Shown in pieces: positions 9,033 to 21,764 of a stretch of DNA of 27,979 nucleotides; the stretch's first letter is position 1; each line of letters begins with the position of its first letter. The stretch covers positions 1 to 27,979 of IMG/VR virus record IMGVR_UViG_3300031862_000550, one strand, 5' to 3'. Source of the DNA: a virus. A program made the position numbers and the translations under genes. A model generated the notes under the pieces. That model saw nothing but the letters and a program-made list of their open reading frames with translations. It was not told the DNA's origin and made no database searches.

Positions 9033-10523
9033 CTATATACTCCTTGCTCCTTCTTTAGAGACCATATGCACTCGTTCTTCCTCAAAAGGTTGCAATCTTT
9101 CGATATCTTTCTTTACTGCATCCCAGAATTTAATTGCAGGAGAAAGTTCTGGCTGAGGTAAAACCGGGATCTCCGGCCTAGACATAATTGCGTATCTACC
9201 TTCATCTGCAGGATGATCTTCACCAGCTGTATCAAGGTCCTCTGGATCATGTTCATCATGGATACAGCCGGGAATGGTCCGGATAAAGTGTTTGCAGTTA
9301 TCAGTTACCAGAAACCTTGCGGTTAATTCCTTAAATTGGTTAAAATAAGCTTTTAAGCCTTCCTTAAACCTTACCCAACCTACATTTCGTCTATTATCGC
9401 CTTTGATTATCGGAAACTTATCTCCTATAACCTCCTGCATTACCTGATACCCTGATTTACCTTTGGCCTCCCCTGTCTTTACCTCAAGGTGCTTATCGTG
9501 GTGCTGCCTATCCCCCCAGATGGCCGGGTCTGCTACCATATAGCGGATGTCTGTTTCCTGGGTTTTCTTATTTGTCGCTAAGATTAAATGGGCTAAATCA
9601 AAATAAGTGTAACCTTCAACATACAATTCTCTATACCGAATTAGAGTGCCCTCAGGAAAAACTGCATACCAACCTACAGAGGCAGGCTTAGAATACCCGT
9701 AATCTAATGCTAGGAATTTAGTATTAGGAAGTTCAGAAAGCATCTGTCTAAGTCTTGAGAAAGGAATGACATGCAGGACCCTACGCCAAGTATCAAAAAA
9801 TTGGCCTTCAAATATATCCCAATCTCCTTCAAGAAGCGCCTTGCGATCTTTCTCAGGGAGGGCTTTAAGCCTGGCTAAATAACTTGGGTCATTCTTTAAG
9901 AGAATCGGGTTATCATAGACATTGGCAAATATGTAGCCTCTGGAAAGCGCGTCTGGATCATTCGGAGTCGTCTCTATATCTTCATCGTCTACCCTTTTAA
10001 AATATTTAGGTTTTCCGTCGGAAGAAAGTTTATCAATGAATCTTTGTTTAACCCAAGCATGGCCTACATTCCCGGGATTGGCGGTCGCCCTGATAAAAGG
10101 AATAATGTCCCGATCAGTAGAACGGCATTGTGCAGTAAGGAACAAATATTGTGTCTCAGTAAACTCTTCCAGTTGATCGAATCCTTCATAATGATACTCT
10201 TTACCTTGGTAATTATATTTATCCTGTTCGTTCTTACAATGACCGAACTCTAAGAAAGCCCTTGATGGCCAGGTCCAACGGCGCAATTCTCCGTTCCAGC
10301 AAGCTTTCTTACTAAACCAGCGCTGGGACCTATCAATTAAATCCTGTAATTTGGGGTAATTCCTGCGGAAGATGATTGCTTTGTAGTAAGGTTTGTCTAT
10401 CTGGTAAGTAGCATCAAAGAGAAGAGCGTCAGATTTGCCTCCTCCTTTGGCCCCACCATAAAGTAACTCCGAGAGAGAAGACCTAAGAAATGTTTCCTGT
10501 TTTTTCTGAGGATGCCATTCCAT
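9033..10523 (-). CDS. terL: Terminase large subunit (ATPase and nuclease)
   Basis: The 496-residue product has a Walker A motif YGGAKGGGKS at residues 22-31, a Walker B region YEGFDQLEEF near 112-121 and a coupling motif RATANPGN at 145-152. The C-terminal RNase H-like nuclease shows ALDYGYS (Asp274), VADPA (Asp332) and a late acidic site in EDHPADEGRYAIM. The length is standard. It pumps DNA into the prohead through the portal and cuts concatemers. It overlaps the small terminase gene by 41 bases, giving a classical terS-terL pair. Confidence 0.95.
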   Translation of the reverse strand: MEWHPQKKQETFLRSSLSELLYGGAKGGGKSDALLFDATYQIDKPYYKAIIFRRNYPKLQDLIDRSQRWFSKKACWNGELRRWTWPSRAFLEFGHCKNEQDKYNYQGKEYHYEGFDQLEEFTETQYLFLTAQCRSTDRDIIPFIRATANPGNVGHAWVKQRFIDKLSSDGKPKYFKRVDDEDIETTPNDPDALSRGYIFANVYDNPILLKNDPSYLARLKALPEKDRKALLEGDWDIFEGQFFDTWRRVLHVIPFSRLRQMLSELPNTKFLALDYGYSKPASVGWYAVFPEGTLIRYRELYVEGYTYFDLAHLILATNKKTQETDIRYMVADPAIWGDRQHHDKHLEVKTGEAKGKSGYQVMQEVIGDKFPIIKGDNRRNVGWVRFKEGLKAYFNQFKELTARFLVTDNCKHFIRTIPGCIHDEHDPEDLDTAGEDHPADEGRYAIMSRPEIPVLPQPELSPAIKFWDAVKKDIERLQPFEEERVHMVSKEGARSI

Positions 10524-10854
10524 CTTTTTTAGGTAGATAAATGCGCAAAAAGTCCCTTAATTCGTCCCCTGCCTCAACATCAGTTTGTTTTCTGTCTGGT
10601 ATAAATTTCCTCATAACGGCAATAAGGATATTGTTATCCTTAAAGGCCTGGCGAACGAAATGCTCAAATAATTTCTTTTTTTCCTCTTTCTCTACTTTCC
10701 TGATTGCTTCCTGTAAAACTTCAAGAGAGAAAGCAGATCTTGCACCTTTAGGTTTCCCCGGATATCCTTTTACAAAACGACCCTTTTTATCGCGTTGGAC
10801 TTTTCTGACGGATATTTTCTTAATTTTCCTTATCTTTCCCTTATTTATGGCCAT
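10483..10854 (-). CDS. Probable terminase small subunit
   Basis: The 123-residue product is basic at the N-terminus and contains KGRFVKGYPGKPKGARS, the motif of DUF5681-type phage proteins that sit before terL, followed by helices (FSLEVLQEAIRKVEKEEKKK). Position directly upstream of and overlapping terL supports a DNA-recognition small terminase. Start ATG at 10854; no strong SD is visible. The identity rests on motif and gene order. Confidence 0.72.
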   Translation of the reverse strand: MAINKGKIRKIKKISVRKVQRDKKGRFVKGYPGKPKGARSAFSLEVLQEAIRKVEKEEKKKLFEHFVRQAFKDNNILIAVMRKFIPDRKQTDVEAGDELRDFLRIYLPKKDGMASSEKTGNIS

Positions 10855-10860
10855 CTTAAG

Positions 10861-11538
10861 TTAAAAAAAATATGCGTATCTTACAATACAAAAGAGGGCG
10901 TTAAAACCATCCTTCCAGGATAATTTCTTGCCCTCTTCTTTGCACCTAGCCTCATAGCTAATTGGGATTTCTTTTATCCGGTAACCTCCCCGGGCCATCT
11001 TTAATGTAATCTCTGGTTCAAAACCAAATCTATTTTGGGTTAACTGAATATTTTTTATAGCCTCAGCTTTAAAAGCCTTGCTGCCGGTCTCCATATCAGT
11101 CAACTGGAGGCCAGTAAAGAGATTAGTAAGCCAGGTAAGAAACTTATTACCTAAGAAATACAAACTCTTCATGTTTTGAATTCTACCTTTAAATCTACTG
11201 CCGTATACTACTTCGGCTTCGTTTTTTAAGAGAGGTTGAATCATATCTTCTAAATCAGCTGGATTATATTCTAGGTCCGCATCCTGAATTGCAATAATAT
11301 CGCCGGTTGCAACTGCCAACCCGGACCTTATAGCCGCGCCTTTACCGCAATTAACAAAATGATAAATGATATGATTGACGCTTTGAAAGAGCCTGTTACG
11401 AAGAAAATCCTGAGTGCCATCAGTAGAAGCATCGTCTACTATGATAATCTCTACCCGAAAAGAAAGACTCCGTAAACAATAAATAATTTTTTCGATAGTC
11501 CTGGCTTCGTTATAACAAGGAACTATAATTGATACCAT
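10861..11538 (-). CDS. GT2 glycosyltransferase, DPM1-like polyprenyl-phosphate sugar synthase
   Basis: The 225-residue product contains all GT2 hallmarks: VSIIVPCYNEARTIEKI at the start, IVDDASTDGT at residues 34-42, QDADLEYNP with DAD at 86-88, VYGSRF near 112 and METGSKAFKAE plus NRFGFEPEIT, the last two typical of dolichyl-phosphate mannose synthases and bacterial homologues. It lacks a C-terminal membrane anchor. The expected product is a polyprenyl-phosphate-linked hexose. It stands three small genes after a TMTC-like GT-C enzyme that would need such a donor. It directly precedes terS, at the edge of the accessory island. Confidence 0.85.
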   Translation of the reverse strand: MVSIIVPCYNEARTIEKIIYCLRSLSFRVEIIIVDDASTDGTQDFLRNRLFQSVNHIIYHFVNCGKGAAIRSGLAVATGDIIAIQDADLEYNPADLEDMIQPLLKNEAEVVYGSRFKGRIQNMKSLYFLGNKFLTWLTNLFTGLQLTDMETGSKAFKAEAIKNIQLTQNRFGFEPEITLKMARGGYRIKEIPISYEARCKEEGKKLSWKDGFNALFCIVRYAYFF

Positions 11539-11581
11539 CTTACTTAAAGTATGATATATTTAAAAAAGTAAAACAAGCTCA

Positions 11582-11797
11582 TTAACCGGTTCCTTTTGAT
11601 TTTAAAAGTATTCTTCCGACGATGGATGCCGCATGGTCCAGTTGGTTACGAGCAACCTCAATCTGCCTCAATTTCCATATGATTTTTGCATGTTCTTTGG
11701 CTGTAAGAAACCGATGAGAATAAAAGAGTTTACGTAAGTATTTTTGCGGAATGTTTACATAGATACAATTCTTAGGTAATATTTTTTCTTTTACCAT
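11582..11797 (-). CDS. Small basic protein, 71 aa
   Basis: The product MVKEKILPKNCIYVNIPQKY is Lys/Arg-rich, with helices around KEHAKIIWKLRQIEVARNQL. The ATG follows directly on the U-tract of a terminator hairpin, so no SD is available. It may be expressed by read-through and leaderless initiation, or the start may be wrong. No family recognised. The 43 bases to the following GT2 gene hold no clear promoter. Confidence 0.55.
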   Translation of the reverse strand: MVKEKILPKNCIYVNIPQKYLRKLFYSHRFLTAKEHAKIIWKLRQIEVARNQLDHAASIVGRILLKSKGTG

Positions 11798-11850
11798 AAA
11801 ATAAAAAAGGCAAGGGCTACTGTATAAACTTACAGTATTTAACCCTTACC
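11798..11850 (-). terminator. Rho-independent terminator inside the island
   Basis: GGTAAGGG pairs with CCCTTGCC (one G-U) and TACTGTA with TACAGTA inside it, loop AGTTTA, followed by TTTTTTATTTT on the minus strand. It separates the TMTC-containing operon from the GT2-terS-terL operon. A weaker imperfect hairpin at 11855-11879 covers the stop of the gene before. Confidence 0.85.
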
Positions 11851-11876
11851 TATGTAACTCGGCCTTATCCGGCTAG

Positions 11877-12095
11877 TTAATCGGGCAAGAATCCTTTGTC
11901 AGTTTTCTTTAAAAATATAACCTTAATTTTAGTATTAGAAATTAAGTCGCAGACCTCTTTCTTTATGGCGCCAGCATTGACTAACGTTACTAATGCTTTT
12001 TTCTCTATTTTTATAAGTGCCTTAACTGAGGCAAGCATCACGGAAGGGATATCCCAAAAATTATATATAGGTATTTTATTTACTTTCTTCTTCAT
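11877..12095 (-). CDS. Small protein, 72 aa, unknown
   Basis: MKKKVNKIPIYNFWDIPSVM opens a product with alternating hydrophobic strands and helices (ALIKIEKKALVTLVNAGAIK, CDLISNTKIKVIFLKK). It could be a small alpha/beta domain. It overlaps the upstream 58-aa gene by 20 bases and ends at a strong terminator, so it is the last gene of its operon. No family recognised. Confidence 0.6.
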   Translation of the reverse strand: MKKKVNKIPIYNFWDIPSVMLASVKALIKIEKKALVTLVNAGAIKKEVCDLISNTKIKVIFLKKTDKGFLPD

Positions 12096-12252
12096 CTATT
12101 TTCCTATCTAGAGGAATCTCTTCAATCCTTAAATTTTTAACCTTAAAAGGCAGACTATCCTTATGCTCTAATTCATAGTCAACCTTACTACCCCCGGCTA
12201 ATTTAGAAATCAATTTTAGGATCTTCCAACAGTTCTTCTCTTCTTGATTCAT
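12076..12252 (-). CDS. Small acidic/basic protein, 58 aa
   Basis: ATG at 12250-12252 follows AAAGGT, four bases after the end of the TMTC-like gene. The product MNQEEKNCWKILKLISKLAG has one Cys and a charged C-terminus (RIEEIPLDRKIDEEESK). Position suggests co-translation with the membrane glycosyltransferase. No family recognised. Confidence 0.6.
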   Translation of the reverse strand: MNQEEKNCWKILKLISKLAGGSKVDYELEHKDSLPFKVKNLRIEEIPLDRKIDEEESK

Positions 12253-12256
12253 ACCT

Positions 12257-13693
12257 TTATGGTTTTATTATTCCTCCCCCTTGTTGAGGTCTATGAATTA
12301 TAATCCCTGCGCGTCTTGCTCTAATCTCTGCCTTCCTTCTTTTTATATCGTCTAATGCCTCTTGAAGTGCCTGGACCTCTCCTAATTTACGATCTAGTTT
12401 CTTTTCATCCTGTAAGGCAAGACCGGCCTGGTAGAGGTATTTCTCTGCCTCATCTAAATAACCCATAACTCTCAATAACTGACCTAAGTTAAAATTGAGC
12501 CAATAATCATTAGGCCGGTAATGTAATCCTTTAGCCCAAGCCCGGATAGCTGAGAACTTCCTGTTCTTGCCGGATTCCAGAATTCCTACCCAGTTCCAAC
12601 AGGCATAGTTATCCGGGAATTCCTGCAGATTCATCTCGATATAATCTTCCATTGATTTAAAGGCCGGCAGATAGTAAGAGATCTTGGTAGTATAAAAAGT
12701 CAAGAATATTGCTGCCATGTAATAGCCATAAGGTGCAATGCTTAATGTATAGGCGAGAGCCAGCATCATTCCTACCTGAGCCAAGTAAGAGTAGCGGTCT
12801 GTAATAGTCTGATAAAGGATAATAAAATTGCACCATTGACCGATAAAGAGGTTATACCAGAAAAGACCGAAACTTAAAGGAGTGCCCCAGAATTTAACGA
12901 TTAAGAAAAGATTTGCTATCATTAAACCCACGCCGGCAAAAAATAGAGGGCAGACTTTTTGCCATTTCTCAGTATCTGAGGTCGCCAGACCGAAAGAATA
13001 ACCAAATACATGAAAAATTCCTAGTCTCCGAGGGAATATGACATTAAAAGTATAATAGGCGTAGGTCTTGACGATAAAGATAAGTTTCTTTGGGTAGATA
13101 TGGGTAAGTGGCCAGGTGGCGTATTTGCCTCTTTCAAACATCGTAGCGTTATCTTGAACCTTATAAAGAGGAACCCTGCCTCTAGAAAGAAAAACAATTA
13201 GTATATAGGGGATGAATATAAAAGTCTTAGTCCAGGGGCCGAGATAAAGAAACAAAAAAGGCGCAAAGGCCGGAGTAAGGTGCCAAAGAAGAGTAAAGAG
13301 ATAAAAAGCTAAAGCCCAACCTTTTAAAATTACCATAAGCAAGACCATCATACAACTTACTCCGTAACCTATGGCATTAAGCCAGCAGGGGATCTGGTTG
13401 CCCCAAGGATTGACGCTGAATAATAATGCTGCTAAGAAAGAAACATTAGTCTTACCAAAAGCGATGTAAATAAGACAGCAGTTTATAATGTGGACTCCGA
13501 GGCGCTGGAGATGTTCTACTTGCGAATTATTGTAATATCGGCTTGTCAGTTGATACCAGAAGTTCTTGATAGGATTAGGATCCTTCTTTTGAGGGATAAC
13601 ATTGTCGTCGATTATATAGCCATAACGTAAAACCCGGCAATAGACTAAAAGATTAAGAAGGATTATTGTTAAAATTTTCTCGAGTTCTGACAT
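12257..13693 (-). CDS. TMTC-like GT-C membrane glycosyltransferase with C-terminal TPRs
   Basis: The 478-residue product has about nine to ten membrane segments and a C-terminal soluble part. Near the start, YGYIIDDNVIP holds the Asp-Asp of the first periplasmic loop, the catalytic motif in GT-C enzymes. The stretch HIINCCLIYIAFGKTNVSFL followed by AALLFSVNPWGNQ matches the TMTC/PMT pattern 'FH..N...H....LAALLFAVHP'. After the last membrane helix, YACWNWVGILESGKNRKFSA and WLNFNLGQLLRVMGYLDEAEKY are TPR repeats, the TMTC domain order. The family transfers sugars from polyprenyl phosphate to proteins outside the cytoplasmic membrane. This is very unusual in a phage. A DPM1-like donor synthase is encoded nearby. 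Confidence 0.75.
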   Translation of the reverse strand: MSELEKILTIILLNLLVYCRVLRYGYIIDDNVIPQKKDPNPIKNFWYQLTSRYYNNSQVEHLQRLGVHIINCCLIYIAFGKTNVSFLAALLFSVNPWGNQIPCWLNAIGYGVSCMMVLLMVILKGWALAFYLFTLLWHLTPAFAPFLFLYLGPWTKTFIFIPYILIVFLSRGRVPLYKVQDNATMFERGKYATWPLTHIYPKKLIFIVKTYAYYTFNVIFPRRLGIFHVFGYSFGLATSDTEKWQKVCPLFFAGVGLMIANLFLIVKFWGTPLSFGLFWYNLFIGQWCNFIILYQTITDRYSYLAQVGMMLALAYTLSIAPYGYYMAAIFLTFYTTKISYYLPAFKSMEDYIEMNLQEFPDNYACWNWVGILESGKNRKFSAIRAWAKGLHYRPNDYWLNFNLGQLLRVMGYLDEAEKYLYQAGLALQDEKKLDRKLGEVQALQEALDDIKRRKAEIRARRAGIIIHRPQQGGGIIKP

Positions 13694-14189
13694 CGTATAC
13701 CTGACCTTTCTCGTCAGGACAGTAAATCTCGCCCTTCCTCACTGGAAATATCGAATGAAAAGATGCAGGGCATAAGATGTTAGGATCATTTATTTTAAAA
13801 TCAAATATCTGCCCTGCCTTAAGGTAAAGACATTGGCCCTGCTGAATTATTATAATCCTTATCTGCCAATCAGGCCAATCAATAGGAAAGAGAAGCCTTC
13901 CCAGGATCCATTTTAACCCTCGTCGGAAACAAAACCAGCTGCGAGGCCTGCGTTCTATCCTCATCTTAATCCCTGTAAGGCTTGGACAACTGATTTCAAA
14001 GATATCCGAGATTGAATTATATAACAAAGATAAGAAATAAGGATAGGCAGTATGGTAAGCATCATAACAGAAACCTTCGCAGATATGCTGAGGCTGGTAA
14101 AATCTGTCTTTATACTTATGATACTTACATCTTTTTCTGGTCCGGACTGTAACTACAGTCGGAGATAAACTCCGAAAACAGGAAAACAT
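13653..14189 (-). CDS. Protein with two TIGR04076-like Cys domains, 178 aa
   Basis: Residues 14-75 (VRTRKRCKYHKYKDRFYQPQ, then CEGFCYDAYHTAYPYFLSLL and SCPS) follow the pattern of TIGR04076: C..(G)HK.GD.F, P..C..A...iyP, then CP. A second, shorter copy lies at about 108-172 (QQGQCLYLKAGQIFDFKIND, then ILCPASFHSIFP and YCPDEKG). The Cys and His residues may bind metal; the family's role is unknown. SD AAGGAGG precedes the ATG at 14189. It overlaps the upstream homologue by 65 bases and the membrane glycosyltransferase by 41. The resemblance is from motif reading only. Confidence 0.55.
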   Translation of the reverse strand: MFSCFRSLSPTVVTVRTRKRCKYHKYKDRFYQPQHICEGFCYDAYHTAYPYFLSLLYNSISDIFEISCPSLTGIKMRIERRPRSWFCFRRGLKWILGRLLFPIDWPDWQIRIIIIQQGQCLYLKAGQIFDFKINDPNILCPASFHSIFPVRKGEIYCPDEKGQVYDVRTRENFNNNPS

Positions 14190-14391
14190 CTCCCTCCTTG
14201 TGCATCGGACAAACGCGCACTCGCTTAACTATGACGTTATCCTTTGAAACCTTAACCCAAACTTCCCCTTTAGGACACTGGACGATTATAACTTGTTTAG
14301 CCCAAGTAAACCATCCTCCCTCTATAATAGTCAAAGCATAAGGATAAAGAGTATGGTATAAAGCTGGACAGATAGGGATTACAGGTAACAT
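14125..14391 (-). CDS. TIGR04076-like partial-domain protein, 88 aa
   Basis: The product starts with the second half of the domain seen in the next gene (PICPALYHTLYPYALTIIEG, then VQCPKGEV) and continues with the first half of another copy (VKRVRVCPMHKEGDVFLFSE). It is thus a permuted or split copy. Stop and start signals and the strong SD of the next gene argue for two separate proteins rather than a sequencing frameshift, though a frame change within the overlap could join them. It overlaps the radical SAM gene upstream by one base. Confidence 0.55.
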   Translation of the reverse strand: MLPVIPICPALYHTLYPYALTIIEGGWFTWAKQVIIVQCPKGEVWVKVSKDNVIVKRVRVCPMHKEGDVFLFSEFISDCSYSPDQKKM

Positions 14392-15440
14392 TATCTTCCT
14401 CCTCTTTTTAACTTACTCACTAATCTGATCCCATCCATAATCCCCCTTGCAGAAGTAAGTCTATCCCACTCCGGGATCCCCACGCAGAAACAATACTTAC
14501 AAGACAAATCTCCTACATGCTCCCAGCAGACTTCCCAACCTTCCTTAAAGATATTCTTTGGCTCATAAAGAGAAACTTCATGCCATAAGGCAGCGCAGGG
14601 GTAAAAATCTCCGTTTGAGTCAATATAGAACATCTGCTGACCAAAAGGACACTTCTTCTTAAAATAATCCCCTTCTAACCGGATACTCTTAAAATCATGA
14701 GGATAATGAATCATATAATCCAAGGACTCATAGGAGAAGAGGACCGGGGCGCCTTGCTGCTTCTTCATTTTAAGCAGAAGATAAAGCTTACGGACATCCT
14801 CATCATCTAATAAGATTTCTTTCTCCAGAGACTTCTGCGATAAAGGAAACCCTGCAGCCAGGGCAAAGGTCACAGGAACTCCCCTCTCTAATAACCAATT
14901 TATGTTGACAGGTGTCGCGGTCTGTTTAGTCATAACCGCATTGATTCTAGTAGGAATTTTGTTTTTCTTAAGTAGGACCAACGCATCAAAAACTCTCTGC
15001 CAATTCTGGCGGTTTGCCTCATGAGATTTTTTCATACCATCAAGAGAAAGCATTACGATATCACATTTCTTAAGGAGTTTTAAATTCTGCTCTACTAAAA
15101 GGCCATTAGTGGTTATATCACAGATACACTTGCGGCCCCGGATCTGGTCTATCAGCTGCTCGATCCCGGGGAAAAGTAAAGGTTCGCCTCCCATCAGGCA
15201 AATTTGTTTGCAACCGCGGTCTGTTAAAACATTAACCATAGCGAGCCACTCTTTAAGAGTAAATTCTTGCTGATCTCTATTACATTCCAAGAAACAATAC
15301 CGGCACTTCATATTGCATTGAGAGGTTAAAAGAAGATAGGCTACAGCCGGGACCCGAAAATTGAACTTCCGGGCCTTCCAGATGGTATAGAAAAGAGAAA
15401 CTTGTTTAAGCATATGTGCTTCGCTTAATTTCTTCATCAT
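14391..15440 (-). CDS. Radical SAM enzyme with SPASM-like C-terminus
   Basis: The 349-residue product has the cluster motif CNMKCRYC (Cys42, 46, 49), then GGEPLLFPGIEQLI, TTNGLLV and LSLDGMKKSHEANR, all standard for SPASM/PqqE-like radical SAM enzymes. The C-terminus has CPFGQQMFYIDSNGDFYPC and, near the end, CKYCFC, fitting auxiliary iron-sulfur clusters. Many relatives modify peptides, others sugars or lipids. Its stop and start overlap the TIGR04076-like gene and the B12-type enzyme, so the three are surely one operon. A substrate cannot be named. Confidence 0.85.
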   Translation of the reverse strand: MMKKLSEAHMLKQVSLFYTIWKARKFNFRVPAVAYLLLTSQCNMKCRYCFLECNRDQQEFTLKEWLAMVNVLTDRGCKQICLMGGEPLLFPGIEQLIDQIRGRKCICDITTNGLLVEQNLKLLKKCDIVMLSLDGMKKSHEANRQNWQRVFDALVLLKKNKIPTRINAVMTKQTATPVNINWLLERGVPVTFALAAGFPLSQKSLEKEILLDDEDVRKLYLLLKMKKQQGAPVLFSYESLDYMIHYPHDFKSIRLEGDYFKKKCPFGQQMFYIDSNGDFYPCAALWHEVSLYEPKNIFKEGWEVCWEHVGDLSCKYCFCVGIPEWDRLTSARGIMDGIRLVSKLKRGGR

Positions 15441-16690
15441 CTCCTCCCTATCTTAAAAAATACTGAATTAATAGATTCATACAAAATTTTAGGTTTTAAG
15501 AATTGCCGCGCTATGGCCTTTACCCCATGAAAATTTACATAGAATTTCCTGTAAGCATACCGGCCAAATGCCTTAAGTCTCTCCGGATCCCAGTTACTTT
15601 GCTCGAAATAAGGAATATAGATCTGGAATTGTGCAGTATCAGGTTTTAATTTACAGGCCCAGTTTATTGTATTCATTACTTCTTCTTCAGTCTCATCAAT
15701 CCCGATCATAAAGTCGCCATGGATCTTAAGGCCGACTCTTTTAGCATCATCGGTAAAATCTTCCATCTGGGCTATACTTATACCTTTATTGACTTTTAGT
15801 AAAGTCCCGGGATTACCACTCTCATATCCTACATGAAGATTAAGACAATTAGCGTCTTTCATTTTAAGTAAAGTGCAATAATCTATATTTGCCCTTACTA
15901 GACATGACCAAGGAATCTTTAAATGCCAAAGAATTTTTTTACAGGAAAAATCCCAACCTCTCTCTTGGGAAAAAGTATCATCTTCTATCATTACAGATTT
16001 AAAGGGTGTTCTTTTCTCAATAAATTCTATCTCCTGCATTACATTCAGCATTGACCTCTCAGTATAATCTTGCTTATAGGTCTTAGGCCAGAGACAAAAA
16101 GTGCATTTACCCCACTCACAACCCCTACCAGTTAAGATATCTACAAAAGGATATGGCTCTGAGGGAGTATGGTAATACTGATATTTAAGGTGCCGTAAGA
16201 AAAACTCCGAGACAAAAGGTATCTCATCTAGTTCCGGACCGCTCAGATGCCTCCCGACGATGGGCTTCCCGGGATCTACTTTTCCTTCTATCCAGGATAA
16301 TACTCCATCTTCTAAGCCGCCTTCGATGCCGGGGTCTTTATATCTGTTTGCATTTAAGGCGTAAAAAGGACCAATTAGTTTGGTATTGGGATATCTCTGC
16401 CGCCAGACTTGAGCAACCCTTAAATCGAACTCGAAACTCTCGTCTCCGGGGTAAATGCAGATATAATCAGGATGGAAGACTTCAAGTTCAACATTAACCT
16501 CTCTGCCGGTCATGTTATAGGCCTGAGCATCCAAGATCTTAACTTGATAACCTTTAGATCCTAAATAGGCACCACAATAACCCAAAAGCATAGGCCACCA
16601 CTGGGCCCCGCACCAGGAGACGAAATCACACCTAGCGTTGCGCATGTAGTTCGGCTTATAAGGAAGACTGATTAAGAGGATTCTTTTCAT
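15437..16690 (-). CDS. B12-binding-type radical SAM enzyme
   Basis: The 417-residue product has an N-terminal Rossmann-like region (RILLISLPYKPNYMRNARCD, GAYLGSKGYQVKILDAQAYN) that matches the cobalamin-binding domain of BchE-like enzymes but lacks the DxHxxG lower-ligand motif. The radical SAM motif is CEWGKCTFC (Cys191, 196, 199), a C-x4-C-x2-C spacing seen in some members. Further motifs are EDDTFSQERGW, HVGYESGNPGTLLKVNKG and FMIGIDETEEEVMNTINWA. Family members do methylations or ring formations on unreactive carbons. The start follows four bases after overlap with the next upstream gene. Confidence 0.82.
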   Translation of the reverse strand: MKRILLISLPYKPNYMRNARCDFVSWCGAQWWPMLLGYCGAYLGSKGYQVKILDAQAYNMTGREVNVELEVFHPDYICIYPGDESFEFDLRVAQVWRQRYPNTKLIGPFYALNANRYKDPGIEGGLEDGVLSWIEGKVDPGKPIVGRHLSGPELDEIPFVSEFFLRHLKYQYYHTPSEPYPFVDILTGRGCEWGKCTFCLWPKTYKQDYTERSMLNVMQEIEFIEKRTPFKSVMIEDDTFSQERGWDFSCKKILWHLKIPWSCLVRANIDYCTLLKMKDANCLNLHVGYESGNPGTLLKVNKGISIAQMEDFTDDAKRVGLKIHGDFMIGIDETEEEVMNTINWACKLKPDTAQFQIYIPYFEQSNWDPERLKAFGRYAYRKFYVNFHGVKAIARQFLKPKILYESINSVFFKIGRR

Positions 16691-17145
16691 TCTTTATGTT
16701 CCAACATTTTAAATTTTGTTTGTTCTAATTTCTCAAATAGAGTCTGACCCTCCAGATTAACTTGAATATAAGGCATAAAAACTTCCTGAATCTTAACCAT
16801 GTCGGTTTCAACTAAAGCTAATTGGGCTTGTAACCACCTTAATATTTGTCGCCAAGCAACGCGTTTTGCCTGGATGGTATCATCTTCAACCTTATGATGT
16901 AATCGTTCTCCTTTTTCTCTCCGTAAAATAAAGTTTTGGTGAACAGTTTGCCATCGACAAGGCAATCGAAAAGGAATATCTTTACCAAAAAGATTCATCT
17001 GAAAGAATACAGCGACGATTTCTCTTTTTTCATAAGTCATCATAATGCCTTTACAACCATACCGACCAAGCAACATCTGTATTTCGGTTACTGTTTTATT
17101 AGGCTCAATCCTTGTAGTTTCCATGTATAAAATTGTCTTATTCAT
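16687..17145 (-). CDS. Conserved phage hypothetical protein, 152 aa
   Basis: MNKTILYMETTRIEPNKTVT is followed by IQMLLGRYGCKGIMMTYE, PFRLPCRW and a helix AKRVAWRQILRWLQAQLALV, then VKIQEVFMPYIQV. This is a well-known prophage/phage hypothetical family with the conserved WRQI.RW..AQ motif; I do not know a function. Its real start may be at Met8 (METTRIEP), where most relatives begin. It is the most phage-like gene in the middle of the island, suggesting the island was inserted around it. It overlaps both neighbours by four bases. Confidence 0.75.
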   Translation of the reverse strand: MNKTILYMETTRIEPNKTVTEIQMLLGRYGCKGIMMTYEKREIVAVFFQMNLFGKDIPFRLPCRWQTVHQNFILRREKGERLHHKVEDDTIQAKRVAWRQILRWLQAQLALVETDMVKIQEVFMPYIQVNLEGQTLFEKLEQTKFKMLEHKE

Positions 17146-17273
17146 TTTGGAAAATCTGGTAATTTTAAATTACTAATAATTAATTCCGTTGCCTTCTTTT
17201 TTGTTTTAGTAGTTTGATAACCTACAGGGACTTCTTTAATATATATCCTTCTCCTTTTTACTTCACGGCCCAT
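17142..17273 (-). CDS. Small basic protein, about 35-43 aa, start uncertain
   Basis: The frame ends KKKATELIISNLKLPDFPK and overlaps the next ATG by ATGA. The first in-frame ATG (17273, MGREVKRRRIY) has no SD and lies inside the methyltransferase gene; AAAAGGAGAAGG lies just before an ATA/ATT region, so a rare start near 17243 is possible. Small partners of the 152-aa phage protein are common in phages. Function unknown. Confidence 0.4.
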   Translation of the reverse strand: MGREVKRRRIYIKEVPVGYQTTKTKKKATELIISNLKLPDFPK

Positions 17274-17965
17274 ATTGACACATACGGCGCAAATCCTTCT
17301 CGCCAAGGTTTGCCGTCGCCCCAATGATAATTTATCTTTACCTCACAGAATCCTAAGGTATCCTTAAGATAAGCCGCAATTACTTCCCCCCGGATCCCTT
17401 GACTATGAACCTCCGTGGATTGATAAAGGTCCTTTTCAACCTTATACCTTGCCGGCGCGTTACGAAACCATCTATAAATTACCAAAAGAACCTTAAAATT
17501 CCTGTAAAAATTCCAGTCCAAGTCAAGATCTGAATAAAATACTCCCCCGCGCTTTAATACTCTTTCAACTTCCTGTAAAATTTCCTCCGTGCATGTAAGA
17601 TGATGTAAGGTAGATAGACAAATAACCTTATCAAACATATTACTTTTAAAAGGCAACCTATGAGCATCCCCACATATACGAAGACAATCTGCCCTAATTT
17701 GCTTAAGCATATTAACTGAAATGTCATAGGCCGCTACGTTCTTTAAGGGCCTTTTGCCTTTACCCATCCAGTAGCCGGTCCCGGCGCCTATATCAAGAAT
17801 CCTCTCTGTTACCAAAAGTAATTTCTCAAATGAGCCGGTATATTTAAATTGCCCTAATTTCGTAAGTAGATACTCCGAAGCTACTTTACGTCTGCCGTCT
17901 GCTTCTTCATATCTTTCTGCCACCAGTTCGTAAAGTTCTTTATTGGATCGCGACGTGGAGTCCAA
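17258..17965 (-). CDS. SAM-dependent class I methyltransferase
   Basis: The 235-residue product has motif I ILDIGAGTGYW at 56-66, the acidic end of strand two in VAAYDISVNML, GDAHRLPF, and VICLSTLHHL followed by VLKRGGVFYSDL, all typical of Methyltransf_11. No substrate domain can be identified, so a sugar, lipid or small-molecule acceptor is possible. It overlaps the SDR gene by 85 bases, which indicates a tight functional unit. Start taken as ATG at 17965; no obvious SD because it lies in coding sequence. Confidence 0.8.
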   Translation of the reverse strand: MDSTSRSNKELYELVAERYEEADGRRKVASEYLLTKLGQFKYTGSFEKLLLVTERILDIGAGTGYWMGKGKRPLKNVAAYDISVNMLKQIRADCLRICGDAHRLPFKSNMFDKVICLSTLHHLTCTEEILQEVERVLKRGGVFYSDLDLDWNFYRNFKVLLVIYRWFRNAPARYKVEKDLYQSTEVHSQGIRGEVIAAYLKDTLGFCEVKINYHWGDGKPWREGFAPYVSIWAVK

Positions 17966-18711
17966 TATAATTCCCTCCTTGCTTTTGCATTAATGTAGTA
18001 TTTATATAAAAAGGCATTATCTACCAGAAAAGGATTGGCAAATAGCCTTACGATCTTACGGCTCCATCGAGGCAGAGGAATCGCGTATTTGTGCAGCTGC
18101 CGGAAGGTTATGTTTAAATCTGTAAGGAGATACTTGTTACCGGGCTGGCCATTTTCCATGGCAGCAATCATCCCATCCGCTACATCATGAACATCTATGA
18201 TATTGCATCCTCCGGGGGGAGCTACAAGAGAAAGAATTGCCCTGGTTGTAGAAGGCATAACTATAACTGAGGGGATATCCGGGTTCTGAAAACAAATACT
18301 CTCGGCTACACACTTTGAATAAACATAAGGATTGGTCTGCGGATCACCAATAAAATAAGTCTCATCCATTAAAATATTAGAAGAATCAGTCAAACCGGTA
18401 ACTAAGGCTGTGGAGGCAAAAACGATCTTTTTAATATGCCTTGCTGCCCTGGCGGCAGCGAATATATTGGCGGTTCCTTTTGTGTTGATAACAAAAATTT
18501 CCTGTGCGTCTTTCTTACAGAAACTTACCTTTGCTGCCAGATGGTATATGTAATCGACATCGCTACAGGCTTCTATCAACTGGTTAATATCCAAGATATT
18601 CTGGCCGGTCGAAGTAGAATATCCTATGACGCTATATCCTAAAGCCAAAAGTTTCTCAGTCAAGACTCTACCTATAAAGCCTGTGTGTCCGGTAACGAGA
18701 CATCTACCCAT
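17881..18711 (-). CDS. NAD-dependent epimerase/dehydratase (extended SDR)
   Basis: The start at 18711 (MGRCLVTGHTGFIG) is chosen because the Rossmann fold begins there; a longer frame upstream runs through the previous gene. TGHTGFIG at 7-14 binds NAD, YHLAAKVSF is the usual second motif, and YVYSK (Tyr-x3-Lys) is the catalytic pair. VVMPSTTR and IIDVHDVADGMIAAMENG follow the family order. Length 276 aa is slightly short. It would modify a nucleotide sugar or a related substrate, feeding the glycosyltransferases nearby. Confidence 0.8.
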   Translation of the reverse strand: MGRCLVTGHTGFIGRVLTEKLLALGYSVIGYSTSTGQNILDINQLIEACSDVDYIYHLAAKVSFCKKDAQEIFVINTKGTANIFAAARAARHIKKIVFASTALVTGLTDSSNILMDETYFIGDPQTNPYVYSKCVAESICFQNPDIPSVIVMPSTTRAILSLVAPPGGCNIIDVHDVADGMIAAMENGQPGNKYLLTDLNITFRQLHKYAIPLPRWSRKIVRLFANPFLVDNAFLYKYYINAKARRELYWTPRRDPIKNFTNWWQKDMKKQTADVK

Positions 18712-18734
18712 AAAATTTTCCGAATTTTTCCTTT

Positions 18735-19691
18735 TTAAAGCTTTTTCCAAAGGCCGCCCTTCTCTCCGGCTATGCAACTTAGGGCATATTCCTGGAACAT
18801 CTTGACCTCCAACATCCTCTCCCTGATTTTCCATAACGCTATCCTCCTTAAATTCCCAAAAGGAATTTGTATAAAAGGGCAGGCAAATACTTCTCCGTAA
18901 GGGTTAATATAAATGATCTCTTTTGCTGCACCGCAACCATATTTATAGTAATTGGCCTGAAAATCGGTCCGGACATAAGGATATTTTTCCTCCCAGTATC
19001 TTATATAACCGATATCTGACTCGGTAAGCATAATATCATCTTTACCTTCCCACCGGCCAATCGGAACTGGAAAAATTATCATTAGAATTATTTTGTATTT
19101 TAAAGAAATGCTGATTAACCGGCTAAAAAATCTTCCTTCGGTAATAGCATGAGAAGTCAAAACTGTAGCAATTGTAACTTTCAAACCCGCAGCTAAGGCA
19201 TTGTCTAGTGCCCTTGTGAAAATATTAGTTTCCTCAAAAGTATATTTTCTAAATTCATCCATACTAATCGTTACAATATCCACTCCCCAAGATTTTAACT
19301 CCTTGGCCTTCTCGTAAGTTAATAAAGTCCCATTAGTAGATACGGAGATAAGATTCTTATGTGGCTGCGCTGCTTTAATGTAATCCTTAAGGTCCGGATA
19401 TAATAGCGGCTCTCCTCCTTGGAATGAGAAATTAACCGCGCCTAACTTCATCGCATCTTTTACTACTTTTGCAAAGAAATGGGGCGGCATCCGGCCAAAT
19501 TCCCTCTTGTTGTAATAAGAAAAACAATGAGGACAAGAGAGATTACATTTGTAACCTATGGCCAGATCCACATAACGTAGGAGACACTTTTCAAATATTA
19601 AAATCCGGATAAAATTCCAGATAAGTCTTAAGATAAGTAGAGGTTTTTTAAGATTAAAGGCGTATTTAAAATTTATCAAGAATCGTCTCAT
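18735..19691 (-). CDS. Radical SAM enzyme with short SPASM-like tail
   Basis: Start Met at 19691 (MRRFLINF) follows a poly-G run that can act as SD. The 318-residue product has CNLSCPHC (Cys49, 53, 56), FSFQGGEPLLYPDLKDYI, SVSTNGTLLTYEKA and VTISMDEFRKYTFEET. The end has CGAAKEIIYINPYGEVFAC and one more Cys, a reduced SPASM region. Its first 35 residues are basic/hydrophobic and may touch the membrane. It follows directly the Ala/Trp repeat gene, so that protein is a conceivable partner, as is a lipid or glycan substrate (HpnH-like architecture). Confidence 0.82.
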   Translation of the reverse strand: MRRFLINFKYAFNLKKPLLILRLIWNFIRILIFEKCLLRYVDLAIGYKCNLSCPHCFSYYNKREFGRMPPHFFAKVVKDAMKLGAVNFSFQGGEPLLYPDLKDYIKAAQPHKNLISVSTNGTLLTYEKAKELKSWGVDIVTISMDEFRKYTFEETNIFTRALDNALAAGLKVTIATVLTSHAITEGRFFSRLISISLKYKIILMIIFPVPIGRWEGKDDIMLTESDIGYIRYWEEKYPYVRTDFQANYYKYGCGAAKEIIYINPYGEVFACPFIQIPFGNLRRIALWKIRERMLEVKMFQEYALSCIAGEKGGLWKKL

Positions 19692-19745
19692 AAATTCCCC
19701 CCCCATCTCTTGGTTACGGTAATGTCTGTGTTGCAAGCGCATACA

Positions 19746-20333
19746 TTATCCTGGGTTACTTGCCTTTAATAACCCCATCCCATATTCAAGAATTTTTAGT
19801 TGCATTGCTGACTCGGCGGCTGACCAGGCTGACTCGGCGGCTGACCAGGCTGACTCGGCGGCTAACTCGGCGGCTGACCTGGCGGCTGACCAGGCTGACT
19901 CGGCGGCTGACCAGGCTGACCTGGCGGCTAACTCGGCGGCTGACCTGGCGGCTAACTCGGCGGCTGACCTGGCGGCTAACTCGGCGGCTGACCAGGCTAA
20001 CTCGGCGGCTTCTTTATTTTTTTTAGATGGATTTTTTATACATTTTTTAGCCGCCTCGATTGCCTCCCTTGGTCTTTTATCATCGGGATATTCTTTCTCA
20101 TAAATATCAATAACCTGTTCAGCGGCAAAAACTGCGTAAGATACATAATCGTAGTAAGTCATAACTCTGACAATGAACCAGTTCGCCCAGTCATATTTCT
20201 TATCTCTAATAAGAAGTTCGAGTATCTTAATTGGAGCTCGTTCTTTCTTGTCCCACCAATCGCCTACCGCTTCTCGGCAGGGTTGGTTCTGCTTAATCCA
20301 GTCTTCGGTGATTTTGGAAATAATGGGTTTCAT
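19746..20333 (-). CDS. Imm5-like protein with Ala/Trp short-repeat domain, 195 aa
   Basis: Residues 1-105 contain WIKQNQPCREAVGDWWDKKE, AAEQVIDIYEKEYPDDKRP and REAIEAAKKCIKNPS. The 'EYPDD.RPR.AIEAA' signature is shared by putative-immunity (Imm5-like) proteins, whose tail is a long Ala-rich helix. From about 109 to 178 the chain is built from the four-residue units AAEL, AARS and AAES and the three-residue unit AWS, then ends in LKILEYGMGLLKASNPG. The unit order is variable and encoded by near-identical DNA, so copy number can change by slippage. SD AGGAGGAGAAT. Function unknown; a radical SAM gene follows after 54 bases. Confidence 0.7.
   Translation of the reverse strand: MKPIISKITEDWIKQNQPCREAVGDWWDKKERAPIKILELLIRDKKYDWANWFIVRVMTYYDYVSYAVFAAEQVIDIYEKEYPDDKRPREAIEAAKKCIKNPSKKNKEAAELAWSAAELAARSAAELAARSAAELAARSAWSAAESAWSAARSAAELAAESAWSAAESAWSAAESAMQLKILEYGMGLLKASNPG
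19808..20010. repeat. Mixed 21/24-bp tandem repeat array in the Ala/Trp protein gene
   Basis: The plus strand shows recurring CTGACTCGGCGGCTGACCAG (21-bp period) and CTAACTCGGCGGCTGACCTG followed by GCGG (24-bp period). These are combinations of 12-nt and 9-nt modules. All keep the reading frame, so length changes give longer or shorter helices rather than frameshifts. The opposite strand is also open here (Arg/Leu/Thr repeats), which I regard as a shadow. Confidence 0.9.
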
Positions 20334-21022
20334 TTTATTCTCCTCCTCCTATTTTTTAATTTCCAATAAGCCCTCCATCTTCTTAATCTAAATCTCCAGA
20401 ACTCTTGAAAATTACCAGGAACTTTCAACTCCCCTACTTGTATTGTTCTAGAATAAACTGTCTTCATTCCTTTCTTTCTGGCTACCTGACTTATATAAAT
20501 ATCTTCCGCAATAACATGAGGAGGAAATTTATCTAACATCTCCCGCCTCCAAGCACAGCATGTCCCTACAACAGAATGCCCAGTTAAGACTCGAATTTTA
20601 TTAGTAACATGCCAATAAAGTTGTTCTAACCAATAGCTCGATACAGGATAAACCCAGGCTCCTACTACCCCTATTCTAGGATCCTGAAAAGCTTCTGCGA
20701 TTCTCCTAAGGCAATCTTTTCTCATTAAACCGTCTACGTCCGTAGAAACTATAATTTTACCTTTTGCTAAAGCTAAGCCGTAATTTAACTGACAAATTTT
20801 ATTCCTAGAAGTAAAACAAACTTGCGCATCCCAATAATGCTGGAGAATCTCCCAGGTCCCATCAGTAGAGCCACCGTCCACGCAAATTATCTCAAAAGGA
20901 GAATAATCTAGCGCCTTTAGATTGGCCAATTTTACTTCAATGATGTCCCTTTCGTTATAGACCGGCACTATGACTGAGATGAAAGGGTAGCAGGTTTCGC
21001 TGCCCCTGCCGGACTGATACAT
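20330..21022 (-). CDS. GT2 glycosyltransferase with DxD, ED and RRW motifs
   Basis: ATG at 21020-21022 has GGAGG five bases upstream, so the short start (MYQSGRGSET) is preferred. The 230-residue product has ISVIVPVYNERDIIEVKLAN, ICVDGGSTDGTWEIL, STDVDGL (DVD at 95-97), HVIAEDIYISQVARKKG (ED near 173) and FRLRRWRAYW. This set of four motifs is that of GT2 enzymes of the cellulose/chitin/hyaluronan synthase type, but membrane helices are missing. It begins the accessory island and overlaps a zinc-ribbon gene before it and the repeat gene after it. Confidence 0.85.
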   Translation of the reverse strand: MYQSGRGSETCYPFISVIVPVYNERDIIEVKLANLKALDYSPFEIICVDGGSTDGTWEILQHYWDAQVCFTSRNKICQLNYGLALAKGKIIVSTDVDGLMRKDCLRRIAEAFQDPRIGVVGAWVYPVSSYWLEQLYWHVTNKIRVLTGHSVVGTCCAWRREMLDKFPPHVIAEDIYISQVARKKGMKTVYSRTIQVGELKVPGNFQEFWRFRLRRWRAYWKLKNRRRRIK

Positions 21023-21186
21023 GCATCCCTCCAATTATTTAATAAATTTATTAATTTTTCTTTACAGAATACGCAGATCTCTTTTTCTTTCGTCAAGGGT
21101 TTGCCATCGGGAGTCTCTACTTTTAATTTCCTCATATCTACTATTGGTATCTCCCGGCTACAGAGATCGCAAAATTTTTTGTCCAT
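20968..21186 (-). CDS. Small zinc-ribbon protein, 72 aa
   Basis: The product MDKKFCDLCSREIPIVDMRK carries CxxC at 6-9 and CVFC at about 38-41, a four-Cys zinc-ribbon or treble-clef finger, then a helix KEKLINLLNNW. SD AAAGGAGGCC precedes the ATG. The Ser/Ala-rich tail overlaps the glycosyltransferase by 55 bases and may be an effect of the overlap. Small zinc proteins at the end of replication regions are common in phages. Confidence 0.7.
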   Translation of the reverse strand: MDKKFCDLCSREIPIVDMRKLKVETPDGKPLTKEKEICVFCKEKLINLLNNWRDACISPAGAAKPATLSSQS

Positions 21187-21452: not shown

Positions 21453-21764
21453 TTATATCCGCCATAAGTCATAATCTTTGTTGAGAGTTACAATAAATCG
21501 TTCCTTGCTTCTTATGGTTATTATTAGGATTTTTCTGTCGTGGAGATCCATCAGGACGCTTTTAATGCCTTCTTTGGTAAAGCCAGTCTTTGTAGCATAC
21601 GCTTGATAATTAGTTTCTACTGACTTATGCCTAAAGCCATAGGTTATCCGGATAGTATAAAATATACACTTCTGCCAGGCACTATTATTTATTCGGTATA
21701 TAACGGCCTCTAGTAATTCATTACAGATCTTGGTATAGCCATGCTCCAACTGAGGATTCGCCAT
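21453..21764 (-). CDS. Phage O-like replication initiator, N-terminal domain only
   Basis: The 103-residue product starts MANPQLEHGYTKICNELLEA, the signature of the lambda O N-terminal domain ('PQ.ENGYTRIANELLEAL'), followed by FYTIRITYGFRHKSVETNYQ, TKTGFTKEGIKSVLMDLHDR and IITI, a winged helix that binds origin repeats. The C-terminal part that contacts helicase in lambda O is missing; the gene ends at about 103 codons, followed by the AT-rich region. It would mark the origin and recruit host or phage helicase. Start from ATG at 21764. Confidence 0.75.
   Translation of the reverse strand: MANPQLEHGYTKICNELLEAVIYRINNSAWQKCIFYTIRITYGFRHKSVETNYQAYATKTGFTKEGIKSVLMDLHDRKILIITIRSKERFIVTLNKDYDLWRI

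Follow-up and report, generated by a model that had tools for sequence, protein, structure and literature searches.

A glycosyltransferase and radical SAM enzyme island beside phage packaging genes: a candidate pathway for modification of the host envelope

Phages that alter the surface of their host usually do so with a module of two or three genes, as in the Gtr modules (GtrA/GtrB/GtrC) used by temperate phages for O-antigen conversion. The DNA analyzed in this study is the entire virus record IMGVR_UViG_3300031862_000550 (27,979 bases, referred to as the "window"), and its subject is an island at positions 10,861 to 21,186 which, like a Gtr module, pairs a phage GtrB-like family 2 glycosyltransferase (GT2) with a multi-spanning transferase. 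The island differs from Gtr in that its transferase is TMTC-like with a tail of tetratricopeptide repeats (TPR), and in that a short-chain dehydrogenase/reductase (SDR), a methyltransferase (MT) and radical S-adenosylmethionine (SAM) enzymes are added; unlike the temperate phages with Gtr modules, these phages showed no tyrosine integrase. By analogy, the island may act as a phage Gtr module to which sugar tailoring has been added, although we do not class it as Gtr, no GtrA having been found. Our favored reading, to which we assign a probability of roughly 0.55, is that it encodes a pathway in which a modified, lipid-linked sugar is made and used to glycosylate the host envelope. No phage island combining radical SAM enzymes with glycosyltransferases was described in the titles and abstracts searched.

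Two other groups of enzymes are relevant. TMTC proteins carry a DD motif in the first outer loop, an ERxxY motif in the last outer loop and C-terminal TPR (PMC7801869, PMC6801728), and the first-loop acidic motif has been reported to be essential in various GT-C enzymes (PMC6801728). The island's predicted transferase, GTC-TPR, resembles the protein O-mannosyltransferases TMTC1-4 (GT105) in its first-outer-loop DD, ERxxY-type motif and C-terminal TPR, but it gives no match to Pfam TMTC_DUF1736, and other TMTC motifs are only partly recognizable by eye. One of the radical SAM enzymes, rSAM2, resembles HpnJ and AprD4 in its radical SAM core and HpnJ in a CxFCLWP-type stretch, and these known enzymes act on sugars. 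It differs from HpnJ in having only about 30% identity and a CX4CX2C motif, and it is the shorter protein, both within the N-terminal part and at the C-terminal end.

Bacteria combine these same enzyme classes in a glycan-type cluster on Lawsonia intracellularis plasmid 1 (L102), where one stretch carries GT2s, GalE, DUF2304, SIS, an HpnJ-like radical SAM enzyme, methyltransferases, another radical SAM enzyme, a GT2, HAD and a GHMP kinase. Like the island, this cluster has GT2s, a GalE-type SDR, an HpnJ-like enzyme (29% identity), a second radical SAM enzyme and methyltransferases; unlike it, the cluster lies on a bacterial plasmid, includes the HAD and GHMP-kinase genes, and its GalE and methyltransferases are not close to those of the window. 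The HpnJ-like gene of Lawsonia is annotated merely as "radical SAM protein".

A preliminary description of this DNA, made from its letters alone, had listed such an enzyme set between the replication and packaging genes. This is borne out: two GT2s, GTC-TPR, three radical SAM enzymes, an SDR epimerase and a methyltransferase are all intact open reading frames (ORFs) on the minus strand, at about the positions given, with a RepO/DnaD-like gene on one side and terS-terL on the other. Neighboring island genes overlap or are barely separated, and AGGAGG-type sites are found for many of them. A single transcription unit fits this layout; one or two phage-style operons had been proposed earlier. The enzymes are as follows.

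10861..11538, minus strand: GT2-b, Pfam Glycos_transf_2 (9e-30), polyprenyl-phosphate sugar synthase-like (DPMS/ArnC/GtrB group)
12257..13693, minus strand: GTC-TPR, multi-spanning, GT-C (TMTC-like) motifs and C-terminal TPR; core gene of the lineage
14391..15440, minus strand: rSAM1, Pfam Radical_SAM (2e-21), extra C-terminal cysteines
15437..16690, minus strand: rSAM2, Pfam Radical_SAM (9e-12), HpnJ/AprD4-like with CX4CX2C; putative sugar-modifying enzyme
17258..17965, minus strand: MT, Pfam Methyltransf_11 (2e-19), class I SAM methyltransferase
17881..18834, minus strand: SDR, Pfam Epimerase (3e-25), NAD-dependent sugar epimerase/dehydratase-like; start uncertain, Rossmann core from about 18711
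18735..19742, minus strand: rSAM3, Pfam Radical_SAM (5e-19) and SPASM (2e-4), MoaA-like
20330..21034, minus strand: GT2-a, Pfam GT2 (4e-27); likely start at 21022 (Shine-Dalgarno site) rather than that of the longest ORF

Gene order in related phages

Relatives were gathered by TerL and capsid scans of IMG/VR, which gave the near relatives G001 (L004), L003 and L002 (TerL 80%) as well as more distant ones; alignment scans with rSAM2 and GTC-TPR added G021, L083, L084, L085 and L086. Single-sequence viral scans with rSAM2 and rSAM3 produced no matches, whereas the alignment scans did find relatives. In some contigs, the terminase was recognized by cross-contig similarity together with position.

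GTC-TPR was located just upstream of the terminase genes in 13/13 other contigs in which it was found. The order in G013 is GT2-a, rSAM3, SDR, MT, a 180-aa ORF, rSAM2, GTC-TPR, small genes, GT2-b and the packaging genes, and that in G021, whose contig starts inside rSAM3, is rSAM3, SDR, MT, two small ORFs, rSAM2, GTC-TPR, small genes, GT2-b and the packaging genes. The contigs of G015 and G011 start near rSAM2 and continue with GTC-TPR, GT2-b and the packaging genes. GTC-TPR precedes the terminase without GT2-b in G001, L003, G012, G014, L083, L084, L085 and L086, and no rSAM2 was present in the 0.8 to 3.8 kb visible upstream of it in G001, L003, G012, L083, L085 and L086 (rSAM2 of the window lies 1.7 kb upstream of GTC-TPR, and short views such as that of L083 are weaker evidence of its absence). 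The contigs of G014 (0.2 kb upstream) and L084 (cut inside the gene) cannot show this side. Among the 11 genomes in which both sides of GTC-TPR are visible, rSAM2 and GT2-b, which lie on opposite sides of it, are both present or both absent in every case. GTC-TPR is a core gene, and rSAM2 and GT2-b travel together.

Of the other tailoring genes, rSAM3-SDR-MT was found in all three contigs with GT2-b and rSAM2 that are long enough to show it. The order rSAM3-SDR-MT-rSAM2 is kept in G013 and G021 at 31-62% identity, a divergence about that of the structural genes; rSAM2 of the window shares 43-61% identity with its counterparts in the four other phages, and GTC-TPR (40-47%) and portal (49-56%) are alike in this respect. 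The earlier suggestion of a joint glycan pathway rather than scattered cargo is strengthened by this shared order in distant relatives, by the co-occurrence of rSAM2 and GT2-b, and by the analogous plasmid cluster. A chimeric contig, also considered at that time, is ruled out, as four other, independent phage contigs have the matching genes in the same order at the same place.

One might argue instead that GTC-TPR and GT2-b form a Gtr-like pair, and that a permissive slot beside terS has taken up the remaining enzymes as unrelated morons. The slot does carry lineage-specific cargo, namely other genes in G001 (1133-2865) and p152, an Imm5-like gene and rSAM1 in the window, and GTC-TPR is retained in eight genomes that lack GT2-b, so it either works without the pathway too or does something else. 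Unrelated morons, however, would hardly keep the order rSAM3-SDR-MT-rSAM2 for so long, and we regard this alternative as unlikely.

The nearest relatives G001 and L003 lack part of the island. In G001, terS follows directly where the window has GT2-b, the sequence ATATATCATRCTTTAA preceding terS in G001 and GT2-b in the window. L003 has, in place of the window's p152, rSAM2 and rSAM1, a small gene (GYQTTKTKKK) that continues into the Cys88 gene; the window retains a 39-aa piece of this small gene between MT and p152. These exact junctions had suggested a recent clean insertion of GT2-b and of p152/rSAM2/rSAM1, but this was rejected as the sole reading, since GT2-b and rSAM2 occupy these places in distant relatives. 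The scar that the preliminary description had named as a sign against the island is therefore confined to G001 and L003, and the gap reflects a loss in that branch or two gains, joint loss being one reading. Trees of portal, capsid and GTC-TPR each need two changes between presence and absence, for example one gain and a joint loss in G001/L003, when G014 and L084 are counted as lacking the genes. Recent acquisition judged by composition was also rejected, as the GC and GC3 of most island genes are within the phage-core range; p152 is lower (GC3 0.29).

The predicted enzymes

The closest solved relatives of GT2-b are DPMS (5mlz, 3e-15) and ArnC (2e-11), with GtrB-type sll0501 weaker, and it matches the GtrB-like phrog_841 at 3e-28. 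Its orthologues (42-49% identity) adjoin terS in G011, G013, G015 and G021. GT2-b thereby resembles polyprenyl-phosphate sugar synthases, which are of the lipid-acceptor type. For GT2-a, the best solved relative is 6yv7 (3e-16) and the best NCBIfam model TIGR04283, below its cut-off; the orthologue in G013 (32%) occupies the same place upstream of rSAM3.

In GTC-TPR, the DD (D29-D30) after the first helix is present in 10/10 sequences covering the region, and [ED]RYxY at 299-303 in 9/11, L085 and L086 having DRYCS. R300, Y301 and L304 are invariant, as are K203, K209 and H228. The tail matches the OGT TPR domain by profile (1e-8). While profile searches with the other enzymes (GT2s, radical SAMs, SDR and MT), which the preliminary description had proposed, returned Pfam families, the window's GTC-TPR gave a weak TPR match alone. 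An AlphaFold2 model (pLDDT 78.5, pTM 0.79) shows a long first helix, a short helix within the first loop, and further helices, as expected of GT-C; an earlier model from three sequences was poor. No match to GTC-TPR was obtained by tblastn in 50,697 phage records or in 72,556 plasmids. In the phylum to which the Tissierella locus belongs, GTC-TPR matches in 398 genomes were confined to the TPR part, and scanning 299 genomes for TMTC_DUF1736 yielded no homologue that could serve in a profile test. GTC-TPR is under purifying selection like portal: its dN/dS between the window and G001 (Nei-Gojobori) is about 0.05, equal to that of portal, with TerL at 0.06, values that are rough as dS is near saturation. 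In G011, GTC-TPR is split over two overlapping frames (L058 1368-1727 and 1667-2809), by a frameshift, assembly error or recoding, and in G012 it adjoins a 542-aa ParB-like protein (L060 14347-15975; ParB_N 2e-28).

rSAM2 matches NCBIfam HpnJ (TIGR03471) at 4e-57 with 194 bits, one third of the cut-off of 577.6, and AprD4 (6fd2) at 5e-14. AprD4 belongs to the apramycin pathway and acts on a sugar. The cluster motif is CX4CX2C in 5/5 phage sequences and CX3CX2C in the annotated Paraburkholderia HpnJ, and an alignment shows the CxFCLWP-type stretch in the phage sequences, this HpnJ and the Lawsonia homologue. No DxHxxG cobalamin motif was present in the first 150 residues, and tblastn against the 50,697 phage records gave no match. 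HpnJ forms the cyclitol ether of bacteriohopanetetrol (BHT), the step after BHT glucosamine (PMC12583986). By homology, therefore, the nearest characterized relatives of rSAM2 are enzymes that act on sugars.

These similarities raise the notion that the island contributes to the synthesis or modification of hopanoid-like lipids by the host, as the best family of rSAM2 is HpnJ and that of SDR is HpnA (9e-26). Both scores, at 194 bits against 578 and 91 bits against 368, are far under their cut-offs, and the best families of rSAM3 do not include HpnH. The chromosomal relatives, moreover, lie among GT2/GT4 genes: bacterial HpnJ-like genes in one phylum (30-33% identity) adjoin GT2-b-like or GT2-a-like genes as well as GT4 genes. 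None of the ten island proteins scanned reached a hopanoid-family cut-off in NCBIfam, and no hopanoid genes surround rSAM2. We thus do not class rSAM2 as HpnJ, its cut-off, motif and gene context all being at variance, and a role in hopanoid metabolism appears highly improbable. SDR shares 34% identity with its relative in G013 and 31% with that in G021, and MT 41% and 37%, respectively, in the same order.

rSAM3 has relatives in G013 (52%) and G021 (62% over a fragment), while rSAM1 has no orthologue at this place in L003, G001 or the other contigs, and a search of bacterial genome contigs gave only a match of 22% identity. PADLOC pVip models match both enzymes (68 bits for rSAM1, 61 for rSAM3), which might point to viperin-type nucleotide chemistry (ddhNTP) against competing phages. 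This can hardly be the case: the NCBIfam viperin scores of 64 and 59 bits, against a cut-off of 180, are no better than those of MoaA/SPASM models, and rSAM3 bears a SPASM domain.

Flanking and accessory genes

The virus record is very probably a fragment, as most tail genes are absent and the gene for the LPD38 polyvalent protein is cut off at one end. Along the minus strand, the order is the LPD38 protein, small genes, the RepO/DnaD-like gene, the island, terS, terL, portal, scaffold and major capsid protein. Besides the enzymes, the island holds genes outside the glycan route, including the Imm5-like gene, p152, a 60-aa ORF that contains part of a former gene, and a number of small ORFs.

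9033..10523, minus strand: terL, flanking gene, phrog_979 (2e-51)
10483..10854, minus strand: terS, flanking gene, assigned by inference, as it immediately precedes terL and is conserved (91% in G001/L002/L003)
11582..11797, minus strand: s71, small conserved ORF, 59% in G001/L002/L003; also in G012, G014 and L084
13653..14189, minus strand: Cys178, weakly TIGR04076-like (NCBIfam 3e-7, below cut-off), 67% in G001/L003
14125..14391, minus strand: Cys88, weakly TIGR04076-like, 83% in G001/L003
16687..17145, minus strand: p152, phage protein, phrog_17260 (3e-10), not found in relatives
17142..17324, minus strand: 60-aa ORF, with a 39-aa stretch 72% identical to a larger L003 ORF and both ends different
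19746..20333, minus strand: Imm5-like repetitive protein of 195 aa, PF21805 (1e-6), phrog_38757 (2e-33), only in the window
20968..21186, minus strand: 72-aa zinc-ribbon-like Cys protein, with CxxC pairs in translation and weak PHROG matches of no assigned function
21453..21764, minus strand: RepO/DnaD-like helicase loader, flanking gene, Pfam Phage_rep_O (1.5e-12), phrog_16826 (6e-19)

The 60-aa ORF holds, by sequence identity, the remnant of an ancestral small phage gene, and the Imm5-like protein is probably accessory. Its repeats (AAELAARSA/WSAAESA) also give an 88-aa antisense ORF. Cys178 and Cys88 (13653-14391) form a tandem pair of TIGR04076-like Cys proteins. The view that the genes of the island serve one pathway fits rSAM2, the GT2s, rSAM3, SDR and MT, whereas rSAM1, p152, the Imm5-like gene and the Cys proteins, for which no counterpart was seen in the pathway-carrying relatives, look like lineage-specific extras.

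The Cys proteins bear on another possibility, in which SPASM-type radical SAM enzymes modify a small Cys-rich phage peptide, as in ribosomally synthesized and post-translationally modified peptides (RiPPs), and the glycosyltransferases glycosylate it. Small Cys proteins do lie nearby, and RiPP maturases are among the many MoaA/SPASM models that match rSAM1 and rSAM3; the scores of MoaA models are equal or higher, however, so the RiPP matches are generic. Moreover, the Cys proteins occur in G001/L003, where no radical SAM enzyme was seen, they were not found in G013/G021, and no precursor peptide is common to the pathway-bearing genomes. Peptide maturation is thus quite improbable.

Other elements were noticed in the relatives. 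Diversity-generating retroelements are present in G021 (contig L087, reverse-complement coordinates: variable repeat 16879-17019, template repeat 17556-17696; 85% identity over 141 bases) and G012 (contig L060; repeats 85% identical over 95 bases), with 20/21 and 14/14 mismatches, respectively, at template A. G012 also encodes a reverse transcriptase and a bAvd-like gene, and no such retroelement was seen in the window. In G001, two opposite-strand ORFs (L026 5605-6243 and 7956-8399) resemble HNH homing endonucleases by eye.

The proposed pathway and its implications

From the genes, their homologies, order, co-occurrence and purifying selection, we infer a series of reactions, an acceptor and a benefit. 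SDR (epimerization/dehydration), rSAM2 (carbon-skeleton or deoxygenation chemistry), rSAM3 and MT would tailor a nucleotide sugar or lipid-linked sugar. GT2-b would load the sugar onto host polyprenyl phosphate at the inner face of the membrane, and GT2-a might extend it or make another linkage. After a host flippase turned the lipid-linked sugar over, GTC-TPR would move it from polyprenyl phosphate to an envelope acceptor (protein or glycan) at the outer face, its TPR tail possibly helping to choose the acceptor. The altered receptor on the infected cell would then block superinfection or keep progeny off spent cells; superinfection exclusion is perhaps the benefit.

The preliminary description had left the target as host surface or virion. 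Glycosylation of DNA and of virion proteins is known from phages, and the island lies beside the packaging genes, both of which would fit enzymes that decorate phage proteins or DNA. However, multi-spanning GT-C enzymes with polyprenyl-phosphate donors work at the outer face, and GT2-b is of the lipid-acceptor type. The target of a membrane GT-C at the outer face would be the host envelope and not the virions, which are assembled in the cytoplasm, and we consider virion or intracellular glycosylation very unlikely; the host envelope is favored.

Several observations weigh against envelope glycosylation by this pathway. No GT-C Pfam family, TMTC_DUF1736 included, matches any of the 11 GTC-TPR members, leaving motifs and architecture as the part of the earlier GT-C assignment that stands, and the Foldseek matches listed (best 50) are filled by the TPR part. 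The GT-C fold is hence no more than likely, the helix layout being GT-C-like while these matches cover the TPR. GTC-TPR occurs without GT2-b in the eight genomes named above, and the coupling of rSAM2 with GT2-b rests on only two tree changes, G001 and L003 being near-copies. The NCBIfam scores are far under family cut-offs and do not fix the exact reactions. Finally, no sugar-activation gene was recognized in the island, and no GtrA flippase (PF04138) was found in the ten phage contigs (fragments), in which positive controls matched. The "complete route" once proposed is consequently not supported, and the host must supply steps.

No tyrosine integrase was found in the ten phage contigs, most of them fragments, and lysogeny is therefore unsupported. 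The source of G013 is a co-assembly of an Antarctic lake (IMG metagenome 3300035698). Genomes of Omnitrophota and Cloacimonadota, phyla placed in anoxic settings, have been described from it (PMC8542988). This setting fits oxygen-sensitive radical SAM enzymes but names no host for G013. A more specific proposal, which we put forward tentatively and with the odds somewhat against it, is that a phage lineage in which no integrase was seen keeps its own pathway, in which a new CX4CX2C radical SAM subfamily makes a rearranged or deoxygenated sugar that is carried on host polyprenyl phosphate and delivered to the envelope by a terminase-side, TPR-bearing GT-C enzyme.

It appears that a whole tailoring route, with the kind of radical SAM chemistry that is characteristic of anaerobes, has long co-evolved with this phage lineage. 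If our reading is true, phage radical SAM genes can form a coherent pathway and not just single auxiliary genes, and the island would be a compact source of new sugar-modifying radical enzymes and of a phage TMTC-like transferase. It would also offer an example, open to testing, of a phage that marks its host with a new sugar.

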